DNA from: a virus
DNA length: 64,000 nt
Virus record (IMG/VR): IMGVR_UViG_3300044634_004833
Span: 1 to 64,000 of that record
Strand: one strand, 5' to 3'
This document shows, one piece after another, positions 5,813-60,439 of this stretch; within the stretch, counting starts at the first letter, position 1, and the number at the start of each line of letters is the position of its first letter. Made by a program: the position numbers and the translations under genes. The notes under the pieces were generated by a model. That model made no database searches. It was not told the DNA's origin and was given only the letters and a program-made list of their open reading frames with translations.

Positions 5813-6442
5813 TCAATTAATATTTTTACCTTCTTTGAGAAGCTTGAGTCCCTTTTCGGTCAGGATAATAAAATCCCAGTTTCTTTTTTTGCAATAAGAA
5901 CCTGCCGCAGACCACTTTGCTAAATTTTTTGGAAGCTTTGTTTGATTTTTAGGCTTGATTTCCCATAATTGCATTTTGCCATTTGCATATTCAACTAAAA
6001 TATCTGGGATATATTTGTGACCATACCCTTCAAACATGTAATCTATTTCAATTGGCTCAACACTGTATTTTAATACATCTTTTTTTGTTTCTAACACTTT
6101 GTAAAATTGACATTCAAGGCCAGACCTGAAATAAAGTTCTTTATTATTTTTTTTAGAAAAGAAAAATCCTGTTTTAAACTTTGGCAACTTTTTAGGCCTT
6201 TTTGCAAATGCGTCTCTAAGAATAAGCGGTCTTAAAGGATAGTCTTTAGGTATCGTTTTTTCAGGATGTTTTATAGCATAGTGCTTTCTAAGTTCTCTTA
6301 AAGGCATTTTGCATTCAGGACAAACAATGTAATCTGTACCTTCTTCATGATTATTAAGAATATGATTTCTAAATCCTTCAAGATTGTCGAAGGATTCGAA
6401 ACAAACAAAGCAGGTGTATGATCTTTGTCTATTGATCATCAA
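5813..6442 (-). CDS. C2H2 zinc-finger / TnsA-like PD-(D/E)XK endonuclease
   Basis: A 209-residue protein. Residues 10-35 form a classic C2H2 finger (YTCFVCFESF...HILNNH), followed by a second CPEC...H...H finger (about 41-59). From about residue 95 comes a TnsA-type nuclease core: Glu in SGLECQFY, Asp in YIPDILVEY, and E-x-K in LWEIKPK. The three acidic/basic residues give a complete PD-(D/E)XK site. TnsA-like nucleases cut DNA at a defined side of a bound site, and in phages similar folds act in DNA processing or packaging. Its start overlaps the end of the next upstream minus-strand gene. Confidence 0.78.
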   Translation of the reverse strand: MMINRQRSYTCFVCFESFDNLEGFRNHILNNHEEGTDYIVCPECKMPLRELRKHYAIKHPEKTIPKDYPLRPLILRDAFAKRPKKLPKFKTGFFFSKKNNKELYFRSGLECQFYKVLETKKDVLKYSVEPIEIDYMFEGYGHKYIPDILVEYANGKMQLWEIKPKNQTKLPKNLAKWSAAGSYCKKRNWDFIILTEKGLKLLKEGKNIN

Positions 6443-6845
6443 TTAAAATGTTTTCTTTTTCTTTGGATCCAGCAACTGGCTCATCAGTTATTTTATTTTT
6501 TAGCTTTTTAACAACTTCTTCTTCCTCTATTATTTTGATCTTATCAGCTTTTGGTTTATTAAAGCCAACGGAGTTGTTAACAACAGGGTCGCTAGATCTA
6601 TCATTAAGAGCTTTTTCTACATCTACAGCAGTAAAAACAACATCTGGTTCTAATCTGTGTCTTGAATTAATGTCCATCATTGTTGCAAAAACCATTCTGT
6701 CATCTTCCCCAGCTGCATAATACTTGTCTTCAAATTTAAAAAACATTATTAAATTATGAGAATCAAAGAAAGAACGAATTGAATCTGCATCTGCTTCACT
6801 AATTATAAATGTTTTAAAATCTAATAATGTTGAATTGTTGCTCAT
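6429..6845 (-). CDS. Tagged small protein, candidate internal head protein
   Basis: A 138-residue protein of unknown function. Residues 8-17 (LDFKTFIISE) fit the F-x-x-F-I...(I)-x-E tag shared by at least ten proteins here, and resemble the T4 capsid-targeting sequence with its prohead-protease site (I-x-E). The C-terminal half is highly charged (EEEEVVKKLKNK). No Shine-Dalgarno is present; the start lies 17 bases from the divergent start at 6863. Confidence 0.7.
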   Translation of the reverse strand: MSNNSTLLDFKTFIISEADADSIRSFFDSHNLIMFFKFEDKYYAAGEDDRMVFATMMDINSRHRLEPDVVFTAVDVEKALNDRSSDPVVNNSVGFNKPKADKIKIIEEEEVVKKLKNKITDEPVAGSKEKENILIDDQ

Positions 6846-6862
6846 ATTAACATATATATTAT
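6846..6862. promoter_or_regulatory. 17-bp divergent promoter between two start codons
   Basis: The two tagged genes at 6845 (-) and 6863 (+) are separated by only 17 AT-only bases plus one C. On the + strand TATATT (6855-6860) lies 2 bases from ATG; on the minus strand TATAAT (6858-6863) lies 12 bases from ATG. Neither side has a ribosome-binding site, so both mRNAs are probably leaderless or nearly so. Confidence 0.5.
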
Positions 6863-7225
6863 ATGCAAAGTTTAAATTTTAAAAGGTTTTTTGAGGAAGC
6901 TGATGGAGCAGATGCCGTAGGTGCTTTGACAAGCTTTTTAGGTATCGATCCTAAAGATATACCAGAAGTTATGGTAGAACCAAAGCTATTATCGCAAATG
7001 GTTTTTGGCAAACAACAAGTTTCTGTAGCTCCATATGAAGTAAAACCTGTTTATAGAAATGGAAATTGTGTTGGAGCTTATTTAAAAATAAATCCAGAAT
7101 ATTCCAAACCATCTTATGTTTATATTAATTCATCTTTAAATAGTAATAGAAATAAAAAAATTCAAGGAGCAATATCATTAGATAGTTTAGATAAATTATT
7201 AACACTAGGATTACAAGCACAATGA
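6863..7225 (+). CDS. Tagged small protein, candidate internal head protein
   Basis: A 120-residue protein of unknown function. The N-terminus (LNFKRFFEEADG) carries the shared F-x-x-F-F...E tag. The rest is a compact alpha/beta domain without recognised motifs. It starts directly beside a TATA-like box with no Shine-Dalgarno. The next tagged gene overlaps it by 4 bases (ATGA), so they form one unit. Confidence 0.7.
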   Translation: MQSLNFKRFFEEADGADAVGALTSFLGIDPKDIPEVMVEPKLLSQMVFGKQQVSVAPYEVKPVYRNGNCVGAYLKINPEYSKPSYVYINSSLNSNRNKKIQGAISLDSLDKLLTLGLQAQ

Positions 7226-7425
7226 TTACTAATTTTAAAGATTGGTTAAAAATACAAGAAACCACCACAACATCAAATGTAGTTTCTGGAGCATCTGGTA
7301 CAGATACTGGAAATATTGCTTCATTTAAAATGCCAGTAGGCGGTGGATTGCTCAAGAATAATAATGCAAATAAAAATCAATATAGAAAATGTGGTCTGGC
7401 TGGTTGTCCTCAAAAAAGTAATTAA
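7222..7425 (+). CDS. Tagged small protein, candidate internal head protein
   Basis: A 67-residue protein. MITNFKDWLKIQE is a clear form of the shared tag and ends in I-Q-E, a good T4-type prohead-protease site. The remainder is low-complexity (Thr/Ser/Gly/Asn-rich) with C57 and C62 near the end (KCGLAGCPQK). Its ATG overlaps the stop of the preceding tagged gene. Confidence 0.7.
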   Translation: MITNFKDWLKIQETTTTSNVVSGASGTDTGNIASFKMPVGGGLLKNNNANKNQYRKCGLAGCPQKSN

Positions 7426-7500
7426 AAAATTATTTTTAGACACTATATTATTGTGTAACCTTTGTTTTGTTTAATAAATTTTGTTTACTATTATTTTTAT

Positions 7501-7528
7501 TTGTTTTTTTAATATTTGATAATATAAT
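7501..7528 (+). promoter_or_regulatory. Sigma70-like promoter upstream of thyX
   Basis: TTGTTT (7501-7506), 16 bases, then a perfect TATAAT (7523-7528). Transcription would begin near 7535 and run through a leader with the palindrome GGCAAATATTTGCC (7557-7570) and the terminator at 7579 before reaching thyX. Confidence 0.55.
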
Positions 7529-7578
7529 AAATATGAGCTTATGAGGTTACAAAAGCGGCAAATATTTGCCACGGTTCT

Positions 7579-8537: not shown

Positions 8538-8561
8538 CAAACAGAATACTAAATATTAATT

Positions 8562-8996
8562 ATGGAAAACTTTATCAATTGGCTTAAAAAAGAAAAAGAA
8601 GTTAGTGCAGAGGAAATCAACAATTCCTCATCTGTGGAGGACATTATTAATAATGTCAAAGCAGTTTGTGTTGACAAATTAAGTATGCAGACAGAAGAGC
8701 AGGTTCCTGCAGCCAAGATTCCCGCTCCACAAACGAAGCCCATGAGTTCTCCAACCGTTGGGGGAGGCAAAGGACAAGTTGCCGGGCCACAGAAAGTGGT
8801 TCCACAACAAAAGGGACAAGCTCCTGCACCACAACAACCACCCGGACAACAACAAGCTAGGCCTTTGGTAGGTGATGGTGGGACTGCGCCAGCCCAAATT
8901 CAAGGACAGAAAGTTAATTTGCCAACTGACCCTACGGCAAGAGAAAAAATGCTTAAAGCCATGCTACAGCGTGGACAAGGGCAAGTTAAAAAATAA
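8562..8996 (+). CDS. Tagged Pro/Gln-rich protein, candidate internal head protein
   Basis: A 144-residue protein. MENFINWLKKEKE is the shared N-terminal tag. After an acidic segment it becomes a low-complexity Pro/Gln/Gly/Ala region (residues 45-120) with a short basic C-terminus (MLQRGQGQVKK), which could bind DNA. TAAATA (8550-8555) lies 6 bases before the ATG and no Shine-Dalgarno is present. It ends in the shared terminator at 8990. Confidence 0.7.
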   Translation: MENFINWLKKEKEVSAEEINNSSSVEDIINNVKAVCVDKLSMQTEEQVPAAKIPAPQTKPMSSPTVGGGKGQVAGPQKVVPQQKGQAPAPQQPPGQQQARPLVGDGGTAPAQIQGQKVNLPTDPTAREKMLKAMLQRGQGQVKK

Positions 8997-9030: not shown

Positions 9031-9039
9031 AATTAATAA

Positions 9040-10014
9040 TCAAAATTTCCAGCGCAATTTTCTTAATGGGAATCCTTCGACTCCGCTATAGCAGAAGCTA
9101 TCTCCTTGTTTTAGCATTCTGTCTATTACGCTGCTGTGTGCATAGAAGCCTGCTGGGCTTGGATTGCCGGGACCAATATTATTGGTTCCCATATAAAGAC
9201 CCCAGCTATTTAAAATGAAACCATATTCTTGACCTTCTATTGTGGCGTATCCCAAAATTGCCATTTGGTGCGCCCAAGATCCGCTAGGACGACATATACC
9301 ATTCTTATCTCTGCTTGTTGTAAATCCTTGATTAGATGCAACACTTAATGCATAGCCTTGAGCTAATGCTTTCTTGGCAGAAGTCCAATCAGAAACTTTA
9401 GTGGTTGATTTTACAGGATGCTTCTTAACTAGAGGCTCTAAATCATTTGGAACTCCACTCGATCCCCATTGACGGCATAATGACTGAGAGTAATTTGTTA
9501 AATCATATTTGCCATCTAGGAATACTCCACGATTAATAATTCCATATGTATTAACAAATTTAGCAGCCCATGCACCGATGGAGCCATCGCCACGCAATCC
9601 GCCATTTCCTATTTCAATCCTACTTCCTCCATATACAACTTCTTGAACAAGAGGTTGGAATTCTTCATTTTGTCCTTGTGCTATCTCAATGCACATAACA
9701 TGTTCTATTGCTGAACAGCAACCGAATGCGACACAGCTTCCGACTTGACCTTGGTTGCGAGCAGGTAGTACATCACCAGTAACTTGTTTGGCAAAATCCC
9801 AGAGGTATACATGGTCTGGAAGTTCTTCGTCAGCATATGAAAAAGCAGGTGCCTCTGTGAAGTCTTTGATAGGTAGAGTATCGACTATGGCGGTAACAGC
9901 TACTGGGTCATCAACCCACCCGAATTCAACGCCATCTGGCACATAAGTAACTGAGGAATCAAAGCCTTCATTGGCTAGATTAGTCATATATGTTAAATAA
10001 TGTTCATTAGACAT
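9040..10014 (-). CDS. Papain-like (C1 family) cysteine protease
   Basis: A 324-residue C1-type peptidase. ARNQGQVGSCVAF gives the oxyanion Gln88 and nucleophile Cys94 with the papain spacing of six. SWAHQMAILGY gives His249 and FILNSWG gives Asn269. All four catalytic positions are present. No signal peptide is visible, and residues 1-80 may be a propeptide. It is the last gene of a four-gene minus-strand operon, overlapping the preceding gene by 8 bases behind TAGGAGGC. Papain-type proteases are uncommon in phages; the target (host surface or phage precursor) is unknown. Confidence 0.88.
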   Translation of the reverse strand: MSNEHYLTYMTNLANEGFDSSVTYVPDGVEFGWVDDPVAVTAIVDTLPIKDFTEAPAFSYADEELPDHVYLWDFAKQVTGDVLPARNQGQVGSCVAFGCCSAIEHVMCIEIAQGQNEEFQPLVQEVVYGGSRIEIGNGGLRGDGSIGAWAAKFVNTYGIINRGVFLDGKYDLTNYSQSLCRQWGSSGVPNDLEPLVKKHPVKSTTKVSDWTSAKKALAQGYALSVASNQGFTTSRDKNGICRPSGSWAHQMAILGYATIEGQEYGFILNSWGLYMGTNNIGPGNPSPAGFYAHSSVIDRMLKQGDSFCYSGVEGFPLRKLRWKF

Positions 10015-13399: not shown

Positions 13400-13412
13400 T
13401 AAATAACTTACT

Positions 13413-13664
13413 ATGAAAAAATTCTCTATTTGGATGGAAGAACGGCTACACGAATTGGCAGCGCCGGGGCAGCAGCCTGCTACTGGTACAGCCCCAGCTA
13501 CTACCAACACTTCTGCTACACAAAAAAACGATCCTAATAGTCCTGCATACAAACTTTTGTTGGCTAAAAATATTGGCAAAGTGATGACAGGCAATAAAAA
13601 AGACACTTTGGCAAACCAATTGGCTTTAGCTGTTGGCGCTACAGGTGAAGGGAAACAAGTTTAA
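13413..13664 (+). CDS. Tagged small protein, candidate internal head protein
   Basis: An 83-residue protein. MKKFSIWMEERLHE is the shared tag, ending in L-H-E. It continues with a Pro/Ala/Thr/Gln-rich stretch (residues 18-42) and a short helical end. TAAATA (13400-13405) lies 7 bases before the ATG with no Shine-Dalgarno. The next tagged gene starts on its stop codon (TAATG). Confidence 0.7.
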   Translation: MKKFSIWMEERLHELAAPGQQPATGTAPATTNTSATQKNDPNSPAYKLLLAKNIGKVMTGNKKDTLANQLALAVGATGEGKQV

Positions 13665-13825
13665 TGACCTTCAAAGAATTTATAAAAATGGATGAGCATA
13701 AATGGAATAATCATGGTGGAGATAGAATGAAAACAATGAGTTCTCATATTAGAAAAGCTTTGCACACAAGCAGAAAGCCTTATATGGGAAGCATACATGA
13801 TTTTAAAAGTAAAAAAGGAAAGTAA
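13664..13825 (+). CDS. Tagged basic 53-residue protein
   Basis: A short gene between the two neighbouring tagged genes. The product begins MTFKEFIKMDEHKW, the closest match here to the T4 capsid-targeting sequence, then is Lys/Arg/His-rich (FKSKKGK at the end), which could suit DNA contact inside a capsid. ATG overlaps the preceding stop, and the following gene starts 1 base after its stop. Confidence 0.72.
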   Translation: MTFKEFIKMDEHKWNNHGGDRMKTMSSHIRKALHTSRKPYMGSIHDFKSKKGK

Positions 13826-13826
13826 G

Positions 13827-15179
13827 ATGTTTGTTGATATTTCTTTTGCTGAATGGCTATTGTTTTCGGAAATGGCAGTTGGTGGTGCGCCACATACATT
13901 CTTGCAGAAGAATCCAAGAAAGCCAGATCAGTCAGATCAGGATTTTATGGTTGTAGCCGGAAATACATTTCCTGTGAAAGATGATTTGAAGAGTGCTGGA
14001 TTTCAATTTTATATGCCGACAAAAACATGGAGCATACCTAGATGGAAATACAAAAGCATGAAGCCAGATTTAAAGGTTAGTTTGGAAAAGAAAGGAATTA
14101 GTTTTGATCCATTCGATATGCCAAGGGAGCAGATGCTGCCCCAAGAAGCACAAGAAAAAACGACTGACGAACAAATAAAAGATGACATTGAAAAAATTGC
14201 TAAAATGAGCAAAAATCAGCAGTATGAAAAGCTTGATGAAATGTTAGAAAAGCTTATCGATGATATTGGCACAATGACAGACGAAGCGAAAAAGAGTCAG
14301 TTGGTTAAGGACTTTTTGGCTATTGCAGCAAAGCTTTATCAATATTCTCCAAGAAACCAATGGCTAATATTTATCCAAAATCCTAAAGCTACAGATGTTC
14401 AAAGCGTTACCAAGTGGCAAAAGCTTGGCAGAAGACTTAAGCAAGGTGCTGATAAGAATAAGATTGCAATCTTTATTCCAATAGTTAAAAAAGAAGAAGC
14501 TATAAAACTTTCACAAGAAGAAGAAGAAAGATTAAAAGACCCACAAATTGAACCGTGGGAAGAAATCGAACTCAGAGATAAACAAAGAGGCGCAGCAACT
14601 GTTTATGGATACAAGATTGGTTATGTTTACGACATTCAAGATACAGAAGCTATTCCAGGTGCAAAAGCATATGATCCAGTATCTTATAGAACAGATAAGA
14701 ATGAGCCAGTTGAGGAATTAAAAGGAATTGTTGCAGCCTTATTAAATTATGCAAGCGAAAAAGGAATTCCTGTAACTTTTGAAGGCATGGATATAAAGAC
14801 TGGTGGATTTGCAACTAAAGACAAAGTAGTAATAAATAATACTTTTGATGGTATTAATAAAGCATCGGTCTTAATTCATGAGCTAGCACATAAATTTTTA
14901 CATTTTGGTCCCGAGAGAAAATCTTATAGAACTAAAGAGGAATATCAAATTGGAGAACTTGAAGCTGAATCAATAGCATCAATTGTATTAAACTTTTTTG
15001 GCTTCAATCCAACTACAGCTCCAAATTATCTTGCTTTATGGCGTGGCGATAAGAAACAAATCAAAGCCAGATCTGAAACTATTAAGAAGGGTGTTCAGGA
15101 ATTTATAAAAGCAATTGAAAAATATTATAGAGATTCTCATGTTCATGAAGACGAGTTTGAACAACAAGAAACAGTATAA
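13827..15179 (+). CDS. ArdC-like antirestriction protein with N-terminal capsid-targeting-like tag
   Basis: A 450-residue protein. Residues 1-15 (DISFAEWLLFSE) carry the shared tag. Residues about 38-75 resemble the small DUF5710-type domain often joined to ArdC-like proteins. Residues about 168-260 match the ArdC N-terminal single-stranded-DNA-binding domain (LYQYSPRNQWLIF and WQKLGRRLKQG). Residues about 330-440 are a zinc metallopeptidase-like domain with HELAH (about 351-355) and a downstream Glu-rich helix (GELEAESIAS). ArdC proteins protect incoming plasmid DNA from restriction. ATG 13827 is chosen over an earlier in-frame ATG at 13797 because AAGGAAAG precedes it and the upstream gene ends at 13825. 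Confidence 0.85.
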   Translation: MFVDISFAEWLLFSEMAVGGAPHTFLQKNPRKPDQSDQDFMVVAGNTFPVKDDLKSAGFQFYMPTKTWSIPRWKYKSMKPDLKVSLEKKGISFDPFDMPREQMLPQEAQEKTTDEQIKDDIEKIAKMSKNQQYEKLDEMLEKLIDDIGTMTDEAKKSQLVKDFLAIAAKLYQYSPRNQWLIFIQNPKATDVQSVTKWQKLGRRLKQGADKNKIAIFIPIVKKEEAIKLSQEEEERLKDPQIEPWEEIELRDKQRGAATVYGYKIGYVYDIQDTEAIPGAKAYDPVSYRTDKNEPVEELKGIVAALLNYASEKGIPVTFEGMDIKTGGFATKDKVVINNTFDGINKASVLIHELAHKFLHFGPERKSYRTKEEYQIGELEAESIASIVLNFFGFNPTTAPNYLALWRGDKKQIKARSETIKKGVQEFIKAIEKYYRDSHVHEDEFEQQETV

Positions 15180-18092: not shown

Positions 18093-18103
18093 GAGATCTG
18101 AAC

Positions 18104-18331: not shown

Positions 18332-18345
18332 GTTAGTTTTATGGA

Positions 18346-18557: not shown

Positions 18558-18571
18558 GAAAAGGGGCTGGT

Positions 18572-19750: not shown

Positions 19751-19757
19751 GGTTGAT

Positions 19758-24544: not shown

Positions 24545-24976
24545 ATGAGCACGAGAGTTAGCCATTCCTATAGAACTGGAAAAGAATATTCTCATTTTTT
24601 TGAGGATGTTGCTGATGGATTATATCATATTGAAAAAGAACAAAAAAATTTAGTTAATTTAACATTAACATTAGAAGACGTTATTTCTATTGCTAAGTCT
24701 GTTAATATTGAAGAATTAACAAGGCAGTCAAGCATATCAGATGATCAAATAAAAAAATATGTTTTTGAAGAATATAATAAAAATAAATTAAAAATTGGAT
24801 TGTCATTTTGTTGGCTTTCAACAGTATATGGCAATTCTGAATTGTCTGATGAACAAAGGATAGAAAAAGGAATTTGTTATTATTCTAAAATAAGAGAAAA
24901 AATAAAAGAAACCCTAAATGTTGCCGAATCATATAGGGTTTCTCAAATAAGTTTTGGTTTAGAATGTATTAAATAA
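24545..24976 (+). CDS. Hypothetical helical protein
   Basis: A 143-residue helical protein (TLTLEDVISIAKSVNIEELTRQ) of unknown family. It starts 2 bases after the preceding stop. Its 3' end overlaps the convergent tagged gene and carries that gene's terminator hairpin (24894-24943). Confidence 0.65.
   Translation: MSTRVSHSYRTGKEYSHFFEDVADGLYHIEKEQKNLVNLTLTLEDVISIAKSVNIEELTRQSSISDDQIKKYVFEEYNKNKLKIGLSFCWLSTVYGNSELSDEQRIEKGICYYSKIREKIKETLNVAESYRVSQISFGLECIK
24894..24943 (-). terminator. Terminator for the minus-strand tagged gene, inside an opposing gene
   Basis: AGAAACCCTA (24907-24916) pairs with TAGGGTTTCT (24934-24943). On the minus strand the stem is followed by TTTTATTTTTTCT, a good U-tract. 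It lies 26 bases past the end of the gene 24969-25475 (-) and within the coding sequence of the gene at 24545. Confidence 0.7.
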
Positions 24977-25475
24977 CGGACTTCCACTTTTTGTGATAGT
25001 GCCTGTCTATCCAATTAGCATACTTGTTTAAGCAGCCAGTATCTTTTGCTTCTTTCATTAGAGCACTTAAAAGATTATCGTTTTCATTTGTTAAATATAC
25101 AATATATTTTATTGCTTGTATTGGATCTGGATGGTAAGAGCCGCTACTGTATGCAACTACAAAAGGGGCTTTTTTCTTTTCGCAGCCGCAATGTTCTTTT
25201 ATTTCTGTTACCTTGTCTACAACTGGTGATTTAGCGTCGAATTTAACATTTGGTGTTCCTAAGTCGCCAAGACCTTCGTTATCTTTTACCTTTGTTTGTT
25301 TTGCAGTATAATCATTTGGTTTTGTTTTGATTTGAGCTGGGAATTTAACCACGGCATCTTCATAGTTTTCTGGAGCCGCAGGAGGCTTTTCTTGCTTCAA
25401 ATCTTCTATATCTACGGCTTTTTCTATTGTTTTTCCCTTACCATTTAAGTATTCTAGGAATGTTTTACGGACCAT
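24969..25475 (-). CDS. Tagged protein, candidate internal head protein
   Basis: A 168-residue protein. VRKTFLEYLNGKGKTIE is the shared tag (F-L-E-Y-L), with the first suitable Glu after T-I. The middle is Lys/Pro/Glu-rich, and a C-terminal helical domain (residues 105-168, CGCEKKKAPFVVAY...) is the only folded part. TAAATA (25491-25496 on +) lies 15 bases upstream with an AGAGGTG binding site between. It stands alone on the minus strand between the two dnaE halves. Confidence 0.65.
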   Translation of the reverse strand: MVRKTFLEYLNGKGKTIEKAVDIEDLKQEKPPAAPENYEDAVVKFPAQIKTKPNDYTAKQTKVKDNEGLGDLGTPNVKFDAKSPVVDKVTEIKEHCGCEKKKAPFVVAYSSGSYHPDPIQAIKYIVYLTNENDNLLSALMKEAKDTGCLNKYANWIDRHYHKKWKSVI

Positions 25476-38104: not shown

Positions 38105-39054
38105 ATTATTATGAGATTCTTGGCCTTGACCGCAGTTGCAGCCAAGAAGAAATAGAAAAAAATTACAGGAAGAAAGCTCTTGAGCATCATCCGGATAGAA
38201 ATCCGGGTGATGCTTCTGCACATCAAAAGTTTTTAGAAGTTCAAGAAGCTTATGATGTTTTAAAAGATAAGTCCAAAAAAATAAATTACGATAATAATTT
38301 AAATGGATTTAATGACCAGCCTATTGGCAACATGTTTGAGCAAGAAAATTTAGATATTAAAATTTCTATTACGTTTACAATTTCTGATACTATTTTTGGA
38401 AAACAAAAAAGCTTAAAGTTATCTAGAGCCAATCCATGTGATGTTTGTAGCGGAAAAGGCTACAAAACTTTTGATTTTTGCAAGCAGTGTAATGGTTCTG
38501 GTTCTGTTGTTACAATGCCCAATCCATTTTTTAATTTTAGAACTTTATGTGGCAAATGTGTAGGCAAAGGAAGAATACCAAAAGATAGTTGCAATTCTTG
38601 TTTAGGACAAAGATACAAGCAAATGCCAGAAGAAGAAATTTCTTATACCATTCCTAAAGGATTGATGGACGGCATGGGCCTGTGTTTAAAAGGCATGGGA
38701 AATTTTGGTGTTTCTGGTCATGTAGGAAATTTGTTCTTAGATTGCAGAATAGAACATGATAATAATTATAAAGTTGATAATTTGAATTTGATATCTACAA
38801 AAAAGATTAAATATAGCACTTTGGTTTTCGGAGGCAAAATAGAAGTACCAACTCCAGATGGAGATATTATAGTTGTTGATATACCAGCAAGCACAGAGTG
38901 TTTAACAAAGTTTACTGTTAAAAATAAAGGATTATATGATATTAAAGATACGAAAAAAAGAGGAGATCTCATAGTTTCAACAGTTGTTGCTTTGCCGAGC
39001 AAAGTAGAAAATGCAGAAGCATTAAAAACTATTTTAGAATTGCATGGAATTTAA
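38101..39054 (+). CDS. dnaJ: DnaJ-family co-chaperone (type I)
   Basis: A 317-residue DnaJ. The J domain (NYYEILGLDRSCSQEEIEK, HPD at about 34-36) is followed directly by the client domain, which holds four Cys repeats: CDVCSGKG, CKQCNGSG, CGKCVGKG and CNSCLGQR (the last degenerate). The C-terminal beta domain is intact. There is little Gly/Phe linker. It would drive host DnaK. Start is TTG 38101, overlapping the groES-like stop. A terminator lies at 39061. Confidence 0.92.
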   Translation: MNYYEILGLDRSCSQEEIEKNYRKKALEHHPDRNPGDASAHQKFLEVQEAYDVLKDKSKKINYDNNLNGFNDQPIGNMFEQENLDIKISITFTISDTIFGKQKSLKLSRANPCDVCSGKGYKTFDFCKQCNGSGSVVTMPNPFFNFRTLCGKCVGKGRIPKDSCNSCLGQRYKQMPEEEISYTIPKGLMDGMGLCLKGMGNFGVSGHVGNLFLDCRIEHDNNYKVDNLNLISTKKIKYSTLVFGGKIEVPTPDGDIIVVDIPASTECLTKFTVKNKGLYDIKDTKKRGDLIVSTVVALPSKVENAEALKTILELHGI

Positions 39055-39524
39055 AAGGCAACGCCAGGACCTGGCGTATTTTTTATTTTATATTGATTTT
39101 TCAAAGCATCATCCCCTGTAAATCTAGATTTGCAGGATGATACTCTAGATGTATTTAAAGTTTTATCTTTTGGATTTCTATCAAAAGTTATTTCAATTTC
39201 TGTTAAATTTGGAATAAAAGGTTTATCTCCAGAAATTCTTTCATATTGATCTCTTGTTAAATATATTCTTGTTTTTTCTTTATCATCTAATATAACTGTT
39301 ATTGGATTTCTTTTAAAAAATAAATATTTTACTTTGGCTGTTTTTTTTATTTGCGGAACATTCATTCCATTATTTGCCATCATATCAAGACTGGGCAAAA
39401 AAGCACTGTGACCAGAAAGCGATTTGGTTTCATCTCCTTCGCTTCCTGTTTGGTCTGATGTCAGCAAGGAACCGGCACCAACAAATTCCATGAATTCCTT
39501 AAATTTAATTTCAATTTTTTCCAT
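39051..39524 (-). CDS. Tagged protein, candidate internal head protein
   Basis: A 157-residue protein. EIKFKEFMEFVGAG is the shared tag in a less perfect form; no Glu follows in the next 15 residues. The rest is basic and beta-like (FFKRNPITVILDDKEKTRIYLTRD is split here as residues 69-92). TATATT lies 5 bases before the ATG with no Shine-Dalgarno. Its last residues are encoded by the dnaJ terminator. Confidence 0.6.
   Translation of the reverse strand: MEKIEIKFKEFMEFVGAGSLLTSDQTGSEGDETKSLSGHSAFLPSLDMMANNGMNVPQIKKTAKVKYLFFKRNPITVILDDKEKTRIYLTRDQYERISGDKPFIPNLTEIEITFDRNPKDKTLNTSRVSSCKSRFTGDDALKNQYKIKNTPGPGVAF
39061..39090 (+). terminator. Intrinsic terminator after dnaJ
   Basis: ACGCCAGG (39061-39068), one A, CCTGGCGT (39070-39077), then ATTTTTTATTTT. 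It ends the + operon and overlaps the last codons of the convergent tagged gene 39051-39524 (-). Confidence 0.85.
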
Positions 39525-45414: not shown

Positions 45415-45466
45415 TGTTTTGCTATTAAAAAAGATATATATTATGTATTCTTAAGAAAGACATTAA

Positions 45467-48400: not shown

Positions 48401-51400
48401 GGAAATAATATTTTCTTTTCTTCTAGTTATAATTCAACAGATACAGCCTATACTGGCCTTGTTCCAACTACTACAACAACTACTACAACTACTACATCTA
48501 CATCTACATCTACAACTTCTACAACAACTACATCTACAACAACTACATCTACTACTTCAACAACAACAACATCTACTACTTCAACAACATGTGCTCCTGT
48601 TTGCGTTTCTGTAAATAGTTCAAATATGTTTAATCAAACATATTTATCTTGTCCAGATGATGGTTATTATTATGAAAATGCAGAAATAGGTTCTGGAACT
48701 GCTACTCAAGAATTTGCAATAAATTGTACAGGAACAATTAAAGTTGAATGTTTTGCAAATAATATTTTTGCAAATGTAGATGTCACAATAAAAACATCTG
48801 TTTCTTCAACACCTTTTACAGTTGCAGTTAGTAAATCTAATCCATTAAATACAACATATTCTGTTTTATCCGGCGGAACGATTTCTTTTTCTTTTCCGGC
48901 TTCAACATATTTTGGTATTGCAGCAGTAAGTGGCAAAGTATTAACTTATAGACCTGTTACAACGACGACTACTACAACTACAACAACAACTTCAACTACT
49001 AGTACTACTAGCACAACTAGCACAACACCTGCTCCTGTTCCAAAGGTAACATGGGTTCAAAGAACATCCCCTACTTTAAGTACAAAAAATATAGTTTATG
49101 GAAATAACGATTTTATAATTCTAAGTGATTTTAATACTACTGCTTATAAAACATCTGACGGCATTACTTTTACGCCAATAACTCTCCCTATTTCTAATGC
49201 ATGGAATTCAGTCGCTATTGGAACTAATTATTTCCTTGCTTCAACAAATGCATCTCCATATTTTATTGGTTCATCTGATGGAACCAACTGGCTTACAGTG
49301 AATTCTCCTAATTCTACGGATAATTTTACATGTTTGACTTATGGAAATTCAAAATTTATAACAGTAGGGGATAATACTACTTCTTTGTATTATAGTTCAG
49401 ATACAACCAGCTGGACATTAAGCACATTACCAAATGCTAGAGCTTGGACATCTGCAGCATACGGCAGCAATAAATATATAATTGTTGCAACTGGAACAAA
49501 CAAATATGTTTATAGTTCTGATGCAATAACATGGACTGAAGCAGATTTACCATCAGTTGCAAATTGGTCAAAAATTATTTATGCAAATGGTAGATTTGTA
49601 GCGATATCTTCAGATTCAACAATTTCTGCAATTAGTGTTAATGGATTAACTTGGACTCTTGGAACTTTACCAGCAAGTGCAAAATGGACTGGATTGGCAT
49701 ATGGCAATGGTTTATTTGTTGCCACAGCAGATTCAACATATTCTGCTTCTTCTTTCAATGGAATTACATGGGTTGAAGAATTTTTACCTGTTAGCGGGTC
49801 TTATAGCTCAGTAGCATTTGGAAATAAAACATTTTTAACATCTTCATATAATAATACGGTTGCCGCAACAGCATTTTATGGTGCAGCCACAACAACAACT
49901 ACAACTACTCTAAGTCCATATAATCAAAATATATTTGGATATATTTGTGGTGGTATAAATAATAATTCAAGTAATAATTACATGAGTAAAATAGACATGA
50001 TATTCATGTCAACTGGTGTTGTTTATAGTAGTCCAAATCCATTGCTTGTTCCAAAATATGCAGCAACATCTGTAAGTTCTAGTACTTCGGGATATGTTTG
50101 TGGAGGGTCTTCTTCTTCATATCGTACTGGTAATTATTCAGCATCAATAAATAAAATAAATTATAGTACCAATACAGTTGTTTCTATATCTGCATCTCTT
50201 TCTCAGCCCAGCATTCGAGCTTCTGGATTTTCAACTTCTCAATATGGATACATTTTAGGAGGATTAAGAACGGCTCTTGGCTTGAGATCTACAGATCAAA
50301 TACAGTTTTCAACAGATGTGCAATCATACTTTATACAATCAAATCCTAGTTTTTTTGCTGGATGTGGATTTGCTCAAAGTTCTACAAATGGATATATGGC
50401 TGGGGGATTTGTAAACTCATCAGCGAGTACAGGCTGGCAAAATAATAATTATATTAATGCTTTTGGTTTGACAACAGGAATTACATCTCTTGTTTCTTCT
50501 TTTATTTCTGATAATTTTTATGGCACTGGACTTCAATCTGTATTAAGAGGTTATTTTGTAGGTGGAAGCACAGTTAATTTTGTTCCGACCAAAAACACTT
50601 ATGCTCTAGACTTTTCAACTAACACATATTTCTTGAACAGCTATAGCATGTATTATGCGAGATATTGTGCTTCATCTGTTTCTGGAAGCACTTTGGGCTA
50701 CATTGCTGGAGGATCTGATTCTTACAGTGCCATTTCCACAATTGAAGTTTTAGATTTTAATACAGACATTTATTCTCTCAATAAATATGCTCTCACCCAA
50801 CCAACTACTGGCTCAACAGGGAACATGGTATCAGTTACTGTGTCACCTGCAGAGCCACCTCCCGGCGTTTCTTGTTATGTTACAGATTATTATAGAAATA
50901 AATATGATGTTTATGATTTGGGAAGCATTATAGGATACGATGAAGTTTATTCCATTGCTTTTAAAAATGGATTTTCAAATATTTTGACTGCATCTGTAAA
51001 AGATGGAACTTCCAATAAAATATTAGAGATTCCAGTAAGAAGAGACGCTTTAACAAACAATGTTGTTTCTTTGGGAATTCCCACAGTTATAAATACAATT
51101 CCTGATTTAATTTGGGGCAATATGTTTACTGCTCCAAATGGCACTTTGTTTGCTAACAAAGATAAGCCAGTAGCAGACGGCGCATTTACTTTGTGGCAAA
51201 TTAATTCTCTTGGAAATTTTGACGAAACAAATTTGTCTTCAAATGGGATAATTTCTGAGAAGTATGGATTGGGAGGAGTTTCCATAGCTCCAGATTCTCA
51301 CTATGGTTCTGGGAAAGCTGCTGTATTAACTGTTGAAAATTCTTATTTTTATCTTTTTGAAATAGAAGAAACAGTTGATGACTATTATTCTTTTGGAATG

Positions 51401-54400
51401 AGGCAACAAAGTGTTGATTTAGATAATAGCTCATCTGGATTTTCATATGTTGCTCCGAATTCAACTTTGCTTAATGAAAACTGGATATTGGTAAATGAGT
51501 ATGAATATGAAGGAAGAATTGTTGCGTATCAATTAGATTCAGACGGAGTGCCAGACAAAACAACAAGAAGAGTTTTTGCAGAATCTGTAATAGACCCAAT
51601 AAGTTCTGCCGTCGATCCATTGACTGGCGATATTTTAATAACTTATTATAATGAATGTACAGGCAAAAGAGCAATATATGTATTTACTGGAGGGTTTAAG
51701 CCTTTTAGCCCAGCATCTCAACCTGCTGCTCTTGGTGGTTCAGATGGTTATTTTTTAGGCGGCTCTGGTGTTAATGGAGCTACAAATGTTATTGAAAAAT
51801 TAAATTATTCAACTGATGTTACAACTCAATCTACATCTACTTTATCTTACTCTATAAATTCTGCATTTTCACTATCTGATGGAAACATAAATGGATATGT
51901 AACTGATGGCGGTCAGTATTTACAAAAATTAAATTATGCAACAGATATAGTTACATCTAGTATTAATAATTTAAGCAGGCAAAGATATGATGGTGGAAGC
52001 ACATCGTTTTTAAATATTAGCGGTTACATTTATGGAGGCCGATTAACACAAGCTAGTACAGAGGCTCCATCAAGTTATACTGATAAGTTTTCTTATTCTA
52101 CTGGTATATTTTCTTTCTTGAATAATTCACTAGAGCAATTCAAGATTTTTACCACTGGTATTTCGGATGCTGCAAGTAGTGGATACTTTTGTGGAGGATT
52201 TAATGGTGTTGGAGCTACAAATGCAGTTGTAAAAGTAGATTATTCTTCTGATACTTTTTCTTTGTTATCTTCAACTCTTTCTGAAAACAGACAATCTCTA
52301 TCTTCTGTTTCAAGTTTTACAAATTATGGTTTTATCGCTGGTGGAATTTCTTCAAGCGCATCTTCTGTTTGTGACAGGCTTAACTTTAGTCAAGAAACCC
52401 TTATTGCAGTTTCAAGTGCTGCTTTGCCTGTTGCAACCTCTGGTTCTTCGGGTCTTTCTCAGGGCGGAATTAAAGGTTATATAGGTGGAGGCAGCAATAA
52501 AGCTGGACCTACTGCAGCAGTATACAAAATAGATTTTGGCACAGAGCAAACATCTTATTCAACTAATTCTTCTCTTTTAACCCCAAGAAATTATCCCGGT
52601 GCTTTAAGCAGGACATACAGCTTCTTACCTCAAGGATATATTGCTGGCGGAAGTGGTTCTAATAGCATAACTGCTTTTACACAAAAAATAGTATTTAATG
52701 TTGATGCCATAGTGAACCAACCAACAGCATATTTGGCAAATCCAAAGTATGGTTTGTCTGGAGTTAGCAATGAATCAAGTAAAGGTTACTTTTTAGGTGG
52801 CTCAACTACTTTCAATGCTAATAATTTTGTTCCTAGTATTGAAAAAATTACATATTCTACTGAATTAACAACCAGCATTAGTTCTGTCTTAGGAACAGCT
52901 AGAGGGTTTGCGTTTAATGTTTCAAATGTTGCAAGCGCTGGATATATTGCTGGAGGAAAAGGAAGCATATTAACATCAATAGAAAAAATAGTTTATAGTA
53001 CAGATGTTACATCTTTGGTTGGAACGGCATCTTTAGCCGTTGGAACAAGCAATGGTGCTTCTCTGTATTCATCTTTGATTGGATACTTCTTAGGAGGTTT
53101 AACCAATACAGGGGCTACTAATTTTATAAGTAAATTTGTTTTTGCTTCCGAAACAATATCTGGATCTAGTTCGGTACTACCAGTTAATGCTCAAAGTTTA
53201 TCTGGTTTATCATTTTTAGATATTACTGGATATGTTGCTGGAGGAATTGATGGCTACTTAATGGGCTCTGTTTACAGTTTATTTTATTCAACTGATTCAA
53301 TTTCCTCTAGTTCGGCATTGTCTTATGTAAGAAGTGGTTTGACAGCAGTAACACAAGGCATTCAAAAAGGATATTTTGTTGGTGGTGAAAACTCTGCTGG
53401 TGCAGTTAATTATATTGAAAAAATTTATTTTCCGAATGGATATTTAAGCAATGTTCAATCTGGAGATTTTTTACAAAGATTCTTTAGTGGAAGTGTCTCC
53501 AAGTTTTCTCAAGGCGGGGACATATCGTATATAATGTCCGGAATAATAAATGTTGAAGGATCATCAAAAGTAATATACCAAAAAGTAGTTGTTGGTTCTG
53601 GGACTATAGTTATAACAGGCAACACAAGATATTCTATTGATGGAACAATATCTCTTCCTTTAACATATAGAATTTTGGAAGGATTAAATACTGCACTTCC
53701 GATAAACTACCAACAGGGAAGGAAAGTTCTTTATGCGTTTAGAGTTGAAGGAGTTTGTTTAAGCCTAACTAATGGAGAGGCCCCATTTATTAACAATGAG
53801 ATTTTGTGTAATTCAAGAAGCATACAGACAATAATTGCAAGCAATCCAAGAGAAGTTTGTCAAAAGTTAATAGATCAAAATTGGATATGGCCAATAAAAA
53901 GATTTCAGCGTTATACAAAGCCAATTTATAAGGAAGATGAATCTTATTTAGAATCTTTTGATTTATATGATCCAAATGATGTTAGATTTGTTAATGAACC
54001 TTTTTGTACATATAAAGAGTGCTTGGATTTCTGCGCCGATTTTATCATTACAGAAACAATTACCTTGCAAAGTTTTTCTTTATTGAGTAGCAATGCTGTA
54101 ATTATGGAAGGAAATGTTTACGTTTCTGGAAGTGTTGCAATAACTTCATCTAAATTTAAATATACTGGTTCTGGAACGATAATAATAAATGGCTATTTTG
54201 GTGTTTCAACAAGTTGGACTGTAACAAATTATACTGGTTCTGGTAATATTCTTGTAACTGGATCTTCTACAGTTGAATCATCTTATTTGGGAGAATTTGT
54301 TGAAGACTGCACTATACTGTCTGAAATAACTCCAATTGAATTTATTTATGGAATTACATCTGGACTTGAGTTAAAATCAATTTCTAATAATTTGCTTATT

Positions 54401-54946
54401 GATCAATGTGGTTGTACAGATATACAAAGTAGGTTTAATTTAGTTACAAATTTTGATAGAAGGCCATCAAAGTTCACAAACTTTATACTATCTAATAATT
54501 TGAAATTTAATCCAATTTTTGTATTAAATTATAATACTAATACAGGTGTATATTTATATACCAAACAGTTTTTAAACAGTAGTAAAGATGAAAAATGGTC
54601 TATAACAACATCTTTAATGTGTGATACAGATCTAAGCAATTTTGATACTAATTCTATTTGGGTTATGAATTTGCATTTTAAACAATATAAAAAATCTTTA
54701 AATAATAAAACTATTGAAACAAATGTAAGAATTTGGATACCAAATAATATAATTTGTCCAAATATATTGCAAAACAAAATGTCATTTGACATAACAGTAA
54801 ATTTAAATTCTAAAATAGCAATCACTAATAATGGGCAAATTTTAAACAATGTTTATATTAACGACCAAATAGGTCTTTTCTCATCTACATCTTGGACAGC
54901 AGCACCAGATTTTAGAATTTATTATTCAGCTTTTGGAAATGTTTAG
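45467..54946 (+). CDS. Giant modular adhesin (RCC1, Asp-box and kelch modules), 3159 residues
   Basis: Residues 1-348 are an RCC1 propeller (GANNHGQLGYG, GTNQYGQLGLG). A Thr/Ser linker follows. Three copies of a roughly 285-residue module with Asp-box-like repeats (SNDGGSTW, STDNGLTWSQV) lie at about 390-674, 711-999 and 1188-1473, separated by Thr/Ser linkers at 675-710, 1000-1041 and 1164-1187. A Cys-bearing domain (CAPVCVSV, about 1042-1163) lies between copies two and three. Kelch-like repeats (GYICGG, GYIAGG, GYFLGG) fill about 1484-1790 and 2088-2697 around another propeller-like domain. The C-terminal 460 residues are unique and have several Cys. Probably a tail fibre or virion surface fibre for receptor binding. 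Confidence 0.85.
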   Translation: MATGYLYSFGANNHGQLGYGTFSNNSYSFPAIVGTNYNWTEISGGHQCAFAINTAGEMYSWGYAGGGLALGTGATTDQSSPVRIGTSLWSKVSALGRIGGTNAFAIRNDGKLYFWGSLAISPAKNATTPTLLDASTNWSVISSGMGFGFAIKSDGTLWSIGTNQYGQLGLGDTTQRTTLTRVGSDSDWAYVNCGDAHTIAIKTDGRVYGCGQNYYGQLGQGNATNLSVLTQIGTNTWWSKIYAGEHSTLLLKNDGTIWGTGAESDSIFGYAASTNKLNLFQCIKLGGSWSRLALGHLFGIGLKTDGTLWGWGFQPAGYSITPSKTTAYTDYVDITAANNAGYILKTSAIPTTTSTTTTSTTTTSTTSTTSTSTTSTSTTSTTTTTTTTLPPLLTWAQRTRPSNSVTSSSFDTTVQNFVLVGNSTYGILTPNGIAYSTVSLLNNLNWTNVEFGNGIFFAISSPGTSFSKSNDGGSTWINVPSPNTSYQYSALTYGAGKFVTLAKNTNIAYYTTNNGVSWAQSTLPYSANWKSIAYGNNSFLAVDDTNLFALSTDNGLTWSQVNSYTNGTWSEITFKSGYFVVVGTSSNVSLRTSNGYDWIRGTLPVTQDWNSVTSSNDLYVAVGNSAIAASSYDGLTWRTENMPASGNWITVSYGGGLYLASQDSSTIAATAGTAPTTTTTTTTTTTTSTTSTSTTSTTSTSTTSTTTTSTTPIPAPLIWYLGSQPLISSSVCAFGNGYFVLLDNASSSSLRTTNGNVVSVTNTNTNQGWNDLYFAGSFFAVPAGPSSVWETSSAGASWSTISSPNSLGEFKSIAAGGGKFVAPQYNSGNFYYSLDGGATWNLTVNSISSNWKKIAYGNGIFLALSDNNPVWYKSTDGISWVQVVQGDFTTWSDLVFGGGYFYALSSAGKVASTTDGISFYSTNLPSSGNWSSLTVGEDIIAAVASGSETKTSFGYISSLPQWSTALMPVSGDWRFVEYGNNIFFSSSYNSTDTAYTGLVPTTTTTTTTTTSTSTSTTSTTTTSTTTTSTTSTTTTSTTSTTCAPVCVSVNSSNMFNQTYLSCPDDGYYYENAEIGSGTATQEFAINCTGTIKVECFANNIFANVDVTIKTSVSSTPFTVAVSKSNPLNTTYSVLSGGTISFSFPASTYFGIAAVSGKVLTYRPVTTTTTTTTTTTSTTSTTSTTSTTPAPVPKVTWVQRTSPTLSTKNIVYGNNDFIILSDFNTTAYKTSDGITFTPITLPISNAWNSVAIGTNYFLASTNASPYFIGSSDGTNWLTVNSPNSTDNFTCLTYGNSKFITVGDNTTSLYYSSDTTSWTLSTLPNARAWTSAAYGSNKYIIVATGTNKYVYSSDAITWTEADLPSVANWSKIIYANGRFVAISSDSTISAISVNGLTWTLGTLPASAKWTGLAYGNGLFVATADSTYSASSFNGITWVEEFLPVSGSYSSVAFGNKTFLTSSYNNTVAATAFYGAATTTTTTTLSPYNQNIFGYICGGINNNSSNNYMSKIDMIFMSTGVVYSSPNPLLVPKYAATSVSSSTSGYVCGGSSSSYRTGNYSASINKINYSTNTVVSISASLSQPSIRASGFSTSQYGYILGGLRTALGLRSTDQIQFSTDVQSYFIQSNPSFFAGCGFAQSSTNGYMAGGFVNSSASTGWQNNNYINAFGLTTGITSLVSSFISDNFYGTGLQSVLRGYFVGGSTVNFVPTKNTYALDFSTNTYFLNSYSMYYARYCASSVSGSTLGYIAGGSDSYSAISTIEVLDFNTDIYSLNKYALTQPTTGSTGNMVSVTVSPAEPPPGVSCYVTDYYRNKYDVYDLGSIIGYDEVYSIAFKNGFSNILTASVKDGTSNKILEIPVRRDALTNNVVSLGIPTVINTIPDLIWGNMFTAPNGTLFANKDKPVADGAFTLWQINSLGNFDETNLSSNGIISEKYGLGGVSIAPDSHYGSGKAAVLTVENSYFYLFEIEETVDDYYSFGMRQQSVDLDNSSSGFSYVAPNSTLLNENWILVNEYEYEGRIVAYQLDSDGVPDKTTRRVFAESVIDPISSAVDPLTGDILITYYNECTGKRAIYVFTGGFKPFSPASQPAALGGSDGYFLGGSGVNGATNVIEKLNYSTDVTTQSTSTLSYSINSAFSLSDGNINGYVTDGGQYLQKLNYATDIVTSSINNLSRQRYDGGSTSFLNISGYIYGGRLTQASTEAPSSYTDKFSYSTGIFSFLNNSLEQFKIFTTGISDAASSGYFCGGFNGVGATNAVVKVDYSSDTFSLLSSTLSENRQSLSSVSSFTNYGFIAGGISSSASSVCDRLNFSQETLIAVSSAALPVATSGSSGLSQGGIKGYIGGGSNKAGPTAAVYKIDFGTEQTSYSTNSSLLTPRNYPGALSRTYSFLPQGYIAGGSGSNSITAFTQKIVFNVDAIVNQPTAYLANPKYGLSGVSNESSKGYFLGGSTTFNANNFVPSIEKITYSTELTTSISSVLGTARGFAFNVSNVASAGYIAGGKGSILTSIEKIVYSTDVTSLVGTASLAVGTSNGASLYSSLIGYFLGGLTNTGATNFISKFVFASETISGSSSVLPVNAQSLSGLSFLDITGYVAGGIDGYLMGSVYSLFYSTDSISSSSALSYVRSGLTAVTQGIQKGYFVGGENSAGAVNYIEKIYFPNGYLSNVQSGDFLQRFFSGSVSKFSQGGDISYIMSGIINVEGSSKVIYQKVVVGSGTIVITGNTRYSIDGTISLPLTYRILEGLNTALPINYQQGRKVLYAFRVEGVCLSLTNGEAPFINNEILCNSRSIQTIIASNPREVCQKLIDQNWIWPIKRFQRYTKPIYKEDESYLESFDLYDPNDVRFVNEPFCTYKECLDFCADFIITETITLQSFSLLSSNAVIMEGNVYVSGSVAITSSKFKYTGSGTIIINGYFGVSTSWTVTNYTGSGNILVTGSSTVESSYLGEFVEDCTILSEITPIEFIYGITSGLELKSISNNLLIDQCGCTDIQSRFNLVTNFDRRPSKFTNFILSNNLKFNPIFVLNYNTNTGVYLYTKQFLNSSKDEKWSITTSLMCDTDLSNFDTNSIWVMNLHFKQYKKSLNNKTIETNVRIWIPNNIICPNILQNKMSFDITVNLNSKIAITNNGQILNNVYINDQIGLFSSTSWTAAPDFRIYYSAFGNV
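46513..46632 (+). repeat. Thr/Ser-coding repeat tract 1 of the giant adhesin
   Basis: Repeated ACAACAACTTCC and ACATCTAC units, about 120 bases, code for the linker between the RCC1 domain and Asp-box module 1. Confidence 0.85.
47490..47597 (+). repeat. Thr/Ser-coding repeat tract 2 of the giant adhesin
   Basis: Repeated ACTACAACTAC and ACAAGTACAACTTCTACC units form the linker between Asp-box modules 1 and 2. Confidence 0.85.
48465..48591 (+). repeat. Thr/Ser-coding repeat tract 3 of the giant adhesin
   Basis: ACTACATCTACAACA-type units, about 127 bases, link Asp-box module 2 to the Cys-bearing domain. Confidence 0.85.
48957..49028 (+). repeat. Thr/Ser-coding repeat tract 4 of the giant adhesin
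   Basis: A 72-base Thr/Ser tract linking the Cys-bearing domain to Asp-box module 3. A fifth, very short tract (49887-49912) precedes the kelch region. Confidence 0.8.
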
Positions 54947-59251: not shown

Positions 59252-59320
59252 TTTCATGTTTTTCATGATTTTGAGGAACTATAGTACTTGTAGGCACTCT
59301 TTTTACACCCGTGGTTCGCT

Positions 59321-59662
59321 ATGAAAAAATATGTAAATATTGCCGATAGACTCTTTATAAAAATTATAAATGAGTTTGGATTGATTTTTGAAAATGGAAT
59401 GTATAAACTTACTAATATTAATGATCCCAAATGTCATTTGTTAGAAATATGTTTGATTACTGATAAAGCTAAAATGACTGGCAATAAAATTAAGGATATT
59501 AAAAGCAATTTAAATGTTAGTGAAAAATGGATATTGGGATTTTTTCACGCTAGCAAAAGAGAGCAGCCAAAATTCTCAAACAAAGATTATTTAGATGGTT
59601 ATAAAGAGTGCATAGATACAGAAGAAAAAAATGTGCAAATGCAGTTATTGTGCAAAAAGTAA
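59321..59662 (+). CDS. Hypothetical protein
   Basis: A 113-residue protein of unknown family with a basic middle and a few Cys. It starts at ATG 59321 after the TnpB unit, behind no clear binding site. Its end overlaps nothing real, and the next gene begins at 59691. Confidence 0.6.
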   Translation: MKKYVNIADRLFIKIINEFGLIFENGMYKLTNINDPKCHLLEICLITDKAKMTGNKIKDIKSNLNVSEKWILGFFHASKREQPKFSNKDYLDGYKECIDTEEKNVQMQLLCKK

Positions 59663-59680
59663 TTTGTTTAATTTTAACTA

Positions 59681-59688
59681 TATAAATA
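59681..59688 (+). promoter_or_regulatory. TATAAATA box 2 bases before a start codon
   Basis: Exact T4-late-type TATAAATA, followed by GT and the ATG at 59691. A promoter this close would make a leaderless mRNA. No Shine-Dalgarno sequence is present. Confidence 0.45.
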
Positions 59689-59690
59689 GT

Positions 59691-59981
59691 ATGGAAAATG
59701 ACGTTAGTACATTAGAAAACCCTGTTCAAAGTGCTAGAGAAAGAATTTGGAAAATATTCCTATTCTTTTTGGGATTCCTTCGTTATGTTGGGTTTTTTGT
59801 TTTGGGAATAATTATTGGGATGGGCATAGTTCTTAAAGATCCTCCTGCCAGTAAAGAACAACAACTAAAAATTGTTCAGCTAGAAAAACAAAATGCCGAA
59901 TTAAAAGCCAAAATAGAAAATAAATTTAACGACAAATCAGCCCCAGATGTAAGCATTAAAAATGCTTTTGTAATAGACTAA
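59691..59981 (+). CDS. Single-pass membrane protein with coiled coil
   Basis: A 96-residue protein. Residues 20-47 (IWKIFLFFLGFLRYVGFFVLG...) form a transmembrane helix, and residues 52-80 a Gln/Glu/Lys coiled coil (EQQLKIVQLEKQNAELKAKIE). The layout resembles phage spanin or anchor proteins, but nothing proves it. ATG 59691 follows TATAAATA. Confidence 0.65.
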   Translation: MENDVSTLENPVQSARERIWKIFLFFLGFLRYVGFFVLGIIIGMGIVLKDPPASKEQQLKIVQLEKQNAELKAKIENKFNDKSAPDVSIKNAFVID

Positions 59982-60439
59982 TCTGGCATTTTGAAGGTAT
60001 CAGGACAAGGGTCTCCCCACCTTTCTGCTTTTCTATCTACCAAATTTGGTGGCAAGCACTGCGGTTCTGATACCATGCATTTTTGTTTGTTTCTATTAGT
60101 AACTTTTATTAATTTTTCATCAGGGTCTGGCGGTAATGGTTTAAATGGCTTGACATCGCCTGGAGGCAATTTTGCTGTTGCTGCGACATATAGTTTTTTG
60201 CCATGTGGCTTTGTCCAAATTGGCACAGGCTTTAAATGATCAATTTTAAATGGTTCTTTTTCCCAGCACTTTTGTAAACGTTCGTCAGCAGATATGTAAT
60301 AAATAGCATCTGCACTACCGGGTAAAAGATATTCAGGAGGATACTGGCCTACACCTCCATATCCAAGAGGATATAAACCAGTTTTTCCACTAGTTTTTCC
60401 TTCATTAATAACTTGTAAATACTCATAGAATTTGATCAT
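59978..60439 (-). CDS. Tagged protein, candidate internal head protein
   Basis: A 153-residue protein. MIKFYEYLQVINEGKT is a near-ideal form of the shared tag, ending in I-N-E, the same as the T4 prohead-protease consensus. The rest is Pro-rich with several Lys and Cys (EKCWEK-like and CMVSEPQC segments). TAAATA (60444-60449 on +) lies 4 bases upstream of ATG with no Shine-Dalgarno. It stands alone on the minus strand and overlaps the end of the gene at 59691. Confidence 0.7.
   Translation of the reverse strand: MIKFYEYLQVINEGKTSGKTGLYPLGYGGVGQYPPEYLLPGSADAIYYISADERLQKCWEKEPFKIDHLKPVPIWTKPHGKKLYVAATAKLPPGDVKPFKPLPPDPDEKLIKVTNRNKQKCMVSEPQCLPPNLVDRKAERWGDPCPDTFKMPD

Follow-up and report, generated by a model that had tools for sequence, protein, structure and literature searches.

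The first 64,000 nucleotides of the IMG/VR virus record IMGVR_UViG_3300044634_004833 (hereafter the window; the record is 154,941 bp long and its remainder was analysed too) encode ten proteins that begin with the same short motif, and this raises the question of why proteins with nothing else in common should share it. An initial annotation of the window described the motif as F-x-x-(F/W/Y)-(I/L/M/F) and proposed that it is a tag like the one that takes internal head proteins of phage T4 into the capsid. All ten N-termini are indeed encoded in the window on the strands reported, although the open reading frame (ORF) placed at 13827 may start at 13797, and the proteins are mutually unrelated, with no pair similar at E<1e-4 in a blastp comparison of the tagged proteins (the 13827 protein being included only as a subject). 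The analysis supports that reading, and we think it very likely that the tag is a T4-type capsid-targeting sequence (CTS) and part of a head-cargo system greatly expanded over that of T4; presence in the virion and cleavage behind the Glu are predicted from sequence.

A shared N-terminal tag and its T4 counterpart

A simple gene caller based on codon usage and blind to the motif was applied, and the regular expression F-x-x-[FWY]-[ILMFV] was sought within the first 25 residues of each product. It occurs in 32-34 of the 188 genes of the record, where 4.9-5.2 are expected from its internal rate in the same proteins (p ~1e-17), and the narrower F..W[ILMFV] is present at 17-18 N-termini (1.1 expected on the same basis). 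Shuffling each N-terminal 25-mer with its composition kept gave a mean of 6.4 and a maximum of 15, compared with 34 observed; within the window alone the motif is found in 12 of 80 genes, and 2000 shuffles gave a mean of 3.0 and a maximum of 10. Altering the spacing of the motif or reversing its order abolished the enrichment in the record and in the related metagenomic phage LR756511. These controls are somewhat enriched in a further relative, G003 (reversed, 16-19 vs 5; F...[FWY], 13-15 vs 5), where the real motif lies well above them (35-38 vs 6). A nine-column profile trained solely on other phages (LR756511, G003 and a third relative, G006), referred to below as the held-out profile, identifies 24 tagged proteins in the record where 0.7 are expected at the threshold, most of them outside the window, and the tagged set is thus larger than initially described. 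We count approximately 26 in the record, ten of them inside the window; this figure consists of 25 listed proteins (three lower-scoring ones having been added and two removed manually) and the 13827 protein, which that list missed because the caller placed its start further upstream. The regular expression is loose and has false hits such as signal peptides (10007 and 93360), and the window hits at 10007 and 32509, which the initial annotation rightly passed over, are probably not tags.

The tag has the consensus F-K-E-W-L-x-(I/L)-x-E, with W preferred, at a variable offset from the start codon. Positions that played no part in the selection are also conserved: the residue after F is K or R in 42% of tags and in 14% of internal occurrences of the motif, and the residue two after F is E in 42% and 7% respectively. 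An [ILMFV]-x-E follows shortly behind 71% of tag motifs, compared with 14% of internal ones; for [IL]xE the values are 61% of tagged and 12% of internal occurrences in the record, and the difference is weaker in G003 (27% vs 12%) and LR756511 (29% vs 7%). Among the eight better examples in the window, for which a following Glu or a Glu in such a context had been claimed, seven have [ILMF]-x-E after the motif (MDE, IQE, INE, ISE, LHE, FEE and FSE) and the 8562 protein has only KEKE. An alignment of 37 tagged LR756511 proteins shows scarcely anything conserved except MxxFxxW. Some proteins have similar segments at their other end, including those at 89993-90517 (...TFKEWLDINAL) and 108667-108843 (...KTFKEFLENK) of the record, 474464-474877 of LR756511 (...SFKEWLSQRI), and 87940 and 117950 of G003. 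The tag is possibly functional at the C-terminus as well; convincing cases are few and overall enrichment is weak, and we have dropped C-terminal tags as a general feature.

The correspondence with T4 is position by position. In the T4 CTS, targeting to the prohead core depends on residues 4 and 7 and processing on residues 8 and 10, and the CTS of IPIII alone is sufficient to bring a foreign protein into the prohead (PMC9026906). T4 IPII and IPIII start with MKTYQEFIAE, and residues 4/7 and 8/10 correspond to the two aromatic residues of the tag and to its hydrophobic residue and Glu. As in a CTS, the tag is short, is found at the very N-terminus of proteins with nothing else in common, and has two aromatic residues three apart with a hydrophobic residue next, this last feature being part of the search motif itself. 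When the huge-phage profile (with F or Y allowed first) was used to rank 263 T4 proteins, IPII came third and IPIII sixth, and the proposed likeness to the T4 internal head proteins holds. The first two places are taken by Dmd, for which we know of no head-protein role, and by gp61.1. The latter (gene 61.1, T4 coordinates 18966-19130), a protein of unknown function, starts with MKTFKEFIKED and may be an overlooked T4 head protein.

The tag resembles the CTS of IPI, IPII, IPIII and the Alt propeptide in its N-terminal position, its length of 10-19 residues, its aromatic spacing, its hydrophobic residue and its [IL]-x-E Glu. A T4-type protease and capsid are encoded by the collinear relative LR756511, and cargo is variable in both systems; T4 IPI, for example, is a restriction inhibitor (PMC9026906, PMC3012670). 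It differs in that W and F are preferred over F and Y, the Glu often lies two residues later, the cargo includes large enzymes, a late promoter abuts the ATG, and an incomplete genome already encodes ~26 tagged proteins and the relative roughly 40-60, compared with a handful in T4. P-SSM2, XacN1 and Stenotrophomonas phage CM1 encode proteins with similar openings (MRTFQEFLQLCE, MRFVQYLIEAS and MTQSFKQFLIEA), several with TAAATA upstream, but there are few per genome and the W form has no strong genome-wide enrichment. In the giant phiKZ-type phage SPN3US, proteins that are loaded into the head and ejected carry propeptides cut by the prohead protease (PMC5694885). The propeptides of phiKZ-type phages differ from the tag in being mostly longer than 100 residues, and phiKZ has no enrichment of the tag motif (4 vs 8.5).

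Among public phages, the tested stretch matches only LR756511, a 595-kb metagenomic phage, at the DNA level, and 48 genes of the record have homologues in it, in an order largely collinear with the window. By its matches to gp13, gp15, gp17, gp19, gp20, gp21, gp23, gp41, UvsX, gp46 and gp47 (some of these assignments being presumed from gene position), and a weak match to gp55 (E 1e-5), LR756511 is a T4-superfamily phage. The prohead protease that the initial annotation invoked is absent from the record, which is a fragment, and is found in LR756511 as a gp21-type S77 protease (E 7e-28) beside a gp23-type capsid gene (E 5e-87). The LR756511 head module is in T4 order (protease, a gene at the scaffold position, capsid gene), and three tagged or tag-like genes (521964, 520504 and 516905) lie 3' of the capsid gene with two other genes interspersed. 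Because the record contains neither the protease nor the capsid gene, the T4-type head of the studied phage is deduced from this relative. A search of sixteen DNA-polymerase relatives, of which the close ones are fragments, gave no match to Pfam family PF03420. A second, weaker S77 prohead-protease match (L010) lies at 242621-242989 (minus strand) of LR756511, distant from the head module.

Late promoters, cassettes and candidate cargo

TAAATA is the core of the T4 late promoter (TATAAATA), which is read with gp55, and it is the most enriched 6-mer 5' of tagged genes in both the record and LR756511. It is present upstream of 14/29 tagged and 17/159 other genes in the record, and of 17/59 tagged and 54/980 other genes in LR756511. 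These sites point to late expression of many tagged genes, together with the head, and provide evidence that is independent of the tag itself.

We propose the following route for the tagged proteins. Their genes would be transcribed late in infection, many from T4-type late promoters of their own, and the F-K-E-W-L segment of the tag, which is probably an amphipathic helix, would attach to the scaffold core while the prohead grows and pull the protein in. The gp21-type protease would then cut after the Glu of [IL]-x-E and release the body from the core, and the freed body would stay in the head with the DNA until its ejection into a new host. We infer all of these steps, from binding to the core and cleavage to packaging and ejection.

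The alternative that survives best is that the tag sorts proteins elsewhere, to the membrane, the cell pole, a phage-made compartment or the tail, given that any common short N-terminal helix could serve as such a signal. We regard this as unlikely, since it does not account for the position-by-position match to the T4 CTS and the recovery of IPII and IPIII, for the gp21-type [IL]xE site behind the tag, for the T4-type late promoters at tagged genes, or for the tagged genes directly 3' of the capsid gene in LR756511.

Several observations do weigh against assignment of these proteins to the head. The position of the Glu varies, and at least a quarter of the tagged proteins have no clear [ILMFV]xE, so some of them may escape cutting. 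TAAATA lies upstream of only about a quarter to a half of the tagged genes, and the record has no protease, scaffold or capsid gene. Large gp23-type phages such as LR756508 and Mel-JY01 lack the expansion, CTS-like genes are few in CM1 and XacN1, and the virion location of the tagged proteins is itself deduced from their sequences. An experimental hint of packaging comes from XacN1, in which the chitinase ORF272 was detected in virions by mass spectrometry (PMC5852040). Read from an upstream in-frame ATG, ORF272 (162627-163334) gains MKNNPFIKWFEYPDVGLRITEEPT behind TAAATA-taacc-ATG, and the start has probably been annotated too far downstream; as the only such case, this could be chance.

Promoter and tag act like a single cassette that new genes can acquire at their 5' end. 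The first 33 nucleotides of two genes in contig L254, ATG through Glu codon, are identical, after which the encoded bodies are unrelated; a third gene and the adjacent pattern hit bear close tag variants in a common context, TAAATA-aact-ATG-AAC. This contig was retrieved for only one of these four genes, the other three having F-K-S-W, which is outside the search pattern used, and similar sharing of near-identical tags is seen in contigs L257 and L267. The alignment of the tagged NADAR protein of LR756511 (521964) with an untagged NADAR-like paralogue (230668) begins at residue 15, the tagged protein having 14 extra residues, and the 59978 protein and its G003 relative differ before the end of the tag and are identical from INE on for ~17 residues. 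In the L254, NADAR and 59978 comparisons alike, the boundary falls at the predicted cleavage site. The near-identical promoter and tag blocks before unrelated genes in some contigs might alternatively be functionless relics of duplication or recombination around promoters, passively spread; this is improbable, as identical blocks stop at the Glu, homologous pairs keep the tag pattern while the residues differ, and the motif is conserved at the amino acid level across genomes of 33-42% G+C.

The distance between TAAATA and the start codon peaks at 4-6 nt in this phage group (the record, LR756511 L054-L083, G003 and G006). For T4, P-SSM2 and KVP40 the peak is at about 20-30 nt; XacN1 and CM1 have both spacings. 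A TAAATA at 3-8 nt is found at 15/59 tagged and 19/980 other genes in LR756511 (p 3e-11) and at 8/29 and 8/159 in the record (p 7e-4), with G003 and G006 in the same direction. With TAAATA 4-6 nt from the ATG, transcription is expected to start at or next to the ATG, and leaderless late mRNAs are therefore predicted. This spacing, and first codons rich in A/T, might be taken to mean that the first codons favour initiation on leaderless mRNAs and that the protein motif is incidental, but such a by-product is highly improbable: the motif, whose offset from the start varies, contains W and charged residues at fixed positions, untagged genes with equal promoter spacing lack it (one with a close TAAATA is the gene for a 1640-residue protein at 569769 of LR756511), many tagged genes are without this promoter, and T4 IPII and IPIII have the same sequence despite ordinary leaders.

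Recognisable cargo domains in the record are a UvrD helicase and an ArdC-N/M78 metalloprotease (just under the Pfam cut-offs), and those in relatives include poly(A)-polymerase-type nucleotidyltransferase, NADAR, HAD, tRNA-ligase or LigT phosphoesterase, C39 peptidase and phosphoribosyltransferase domains; the majority of tagged proteins have no known domain. Judged by their families, the recognisable proteins, RNA-repair enzymes among them, look like counter-defence and host-takeover functions, in keeping with a set of injected proteins. We lean slightly towards the broader proposal that this group of huge T4-type phages uses capsid loading as a general delivery platform, in which a leaderless late promoter and a self-removing tag of 11-15 residues would turn a captured gene into injected cargo, with 25-60 proteins entering the host together with the DNA. 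Most huge-phage genes have no known role, and a single short sequence rule would, provided that the tag does mark head cargo, assign dozens of genes per genome to the injected set, and the question of which proteins a phage injects would become a sequence search. Delivery would coincide with the first moment of infection, when counter-defence counts most; natural tags would be available for loading proteins into phage heads, and T4 may have a further head protein in gp61.1.

Distribution of the expansion

LR756511 has 65-67 proteins with the N-terminal motif (30 expected) and 41 above the threshold of a held-out profile (3.6 expected), and we put its tagged proteins at roughly 40-60; G006 has 18 with the motif (4 expected). 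T4, KVP40, lambda and phiKZ have little or nothing above chance, and the excess in P-SSM2 and Staphylococcus phage K is mild. The expansion is confined to one group of phages and is no rule for all; that it might be general to large T4-type phages is ruled out by LR756508, Mel-JY01, CM1 and XacN1. No such expansion was described in the open-access literature searched.

An IMG/VR scan for the pattern of TAAATA, 4-6 nt, ATG and F-K-E-W returned 30 stretches, and 41 of the 256 genes adjoining the pattern hits are tagged (6.3 expected, with some redundancy between contigs). An S77 protease is present in 8 of 17 contigs tested, mostly from this set. Lower conservation of tagged genes than of others is weakly significant (p 0.03-0.07). 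Only 1 of 295 genes at the loci of distant DNA-polymerase relatives is tagged, and this result, together with the N-terminal shuffles, internal rates, shifted-spacing controls, held-out profiles and control phages, leaves practically no room for chance in an AT-rich genome or a gene-calling artefact, whatever the looseness of the regular expression and its occasional false hits.

Tagged proteins and other genes of the window

Three tagged genes lie together near the left end of the window. The leftmost (6429..6845, minus strand; 138 residues) starts with MSNNSTLLDFKTFIISE followed by ADAD, and was found by both the regular expression and the held-out profile (score 10.8). To its right on the plus strand are 6863..7225 (120 residues, MQSLNFKRFFEEADGA, score 10.4) and 7222..7425 (67 residues, MITNFKDWLKIQE followed by TTTT, score 13.9). 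The 144-residue product of 8562..8996 (plus strand; MENFINWLKKEKEVSAE, score 10.9) is encoded behind a putative late-promoter core at 8550..8555, 6 nt 5' of its ATG, assigned by its sequence and the enrichment of the class. On the same grounds a core is assigned at 13400..13405, 7 nt 5' of the ATG of 13413..13664 (plus strand; 83 residues, MKKFSIWMEERLHE followed by LAAP, score 13.9). This gene is followed on the same strand by 13664..13825 (53 residues, MTFKEFIKMDE followed by HKWN, score 12.6) and by the gene for the putative ArdC-N/M78-like metalloprotease, 13797..15179 (start at 13797 or 13827), whose product contains DISFAEWLLFSE followed by MAVGG. Only remote phage homologues of the latter were found, and its G006 orthologue (57401) retains the tag as F.EW.L..E. 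A phage homologue of the protein at 135234 was sought and none was found. AlphaFold models of two cargo proteins were poor, with a mean predicted local distance difference test score (pLDDT) of 48 and 40.

The remaining three are on the minus strand. The 168-residue product of 24969..25475 starts with MVRKTFLEYLNGKGKTIEKAV (score 11.1) and has a TAAATA 15 nt upstream. That of 39051..39524 (157 residues, MEKIEIKFKEFMEFVGAG, score 13.2) has a homologue at 16494 of G006 with the N-terminus MQFNKFLEISE. Finally, the 153-residue product of 59978..60439 starts with MIKFYEYLQVINE followed by GKTSGKTGLYP (score 8.8), and its upstream sequence, ctaaataaaat-ATG, includes a TAAATA late-promoter core at 60445..60450 (minus strand), 5 nt 5' of the ATG at 60439.

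Other features of the window are of some interest. The DNA polymerase gene is split in two ORFs (21405-22871 and 25518-28013) with a 2OG-Fe(II) oxygenase and phrog_2954 between them; it is split in G003 and G006 too, and LR756511 encodes a single protein of 1179 residues. Three adjacent conserved genes at 16020-21359, 55-68% identical in relatives, include a weak phrog match to 'sporulation protein' and resemble what we take to be a PrkA-kinase / DUF444 / SpoVR set. The 9040-10014 product (minus strand) has the look of a papain-type cysteine peptidase, judged by eye from its translation. Large RCC1-repeat proteins are encoded at 42340-54946 and, beyond the window, at 119306-123562; those at 42340 and 119306 match RCC1 in Pfam, and the 3159-residue protein at 45467 has an N-terminal RCC1-like repeat as judged by eye.

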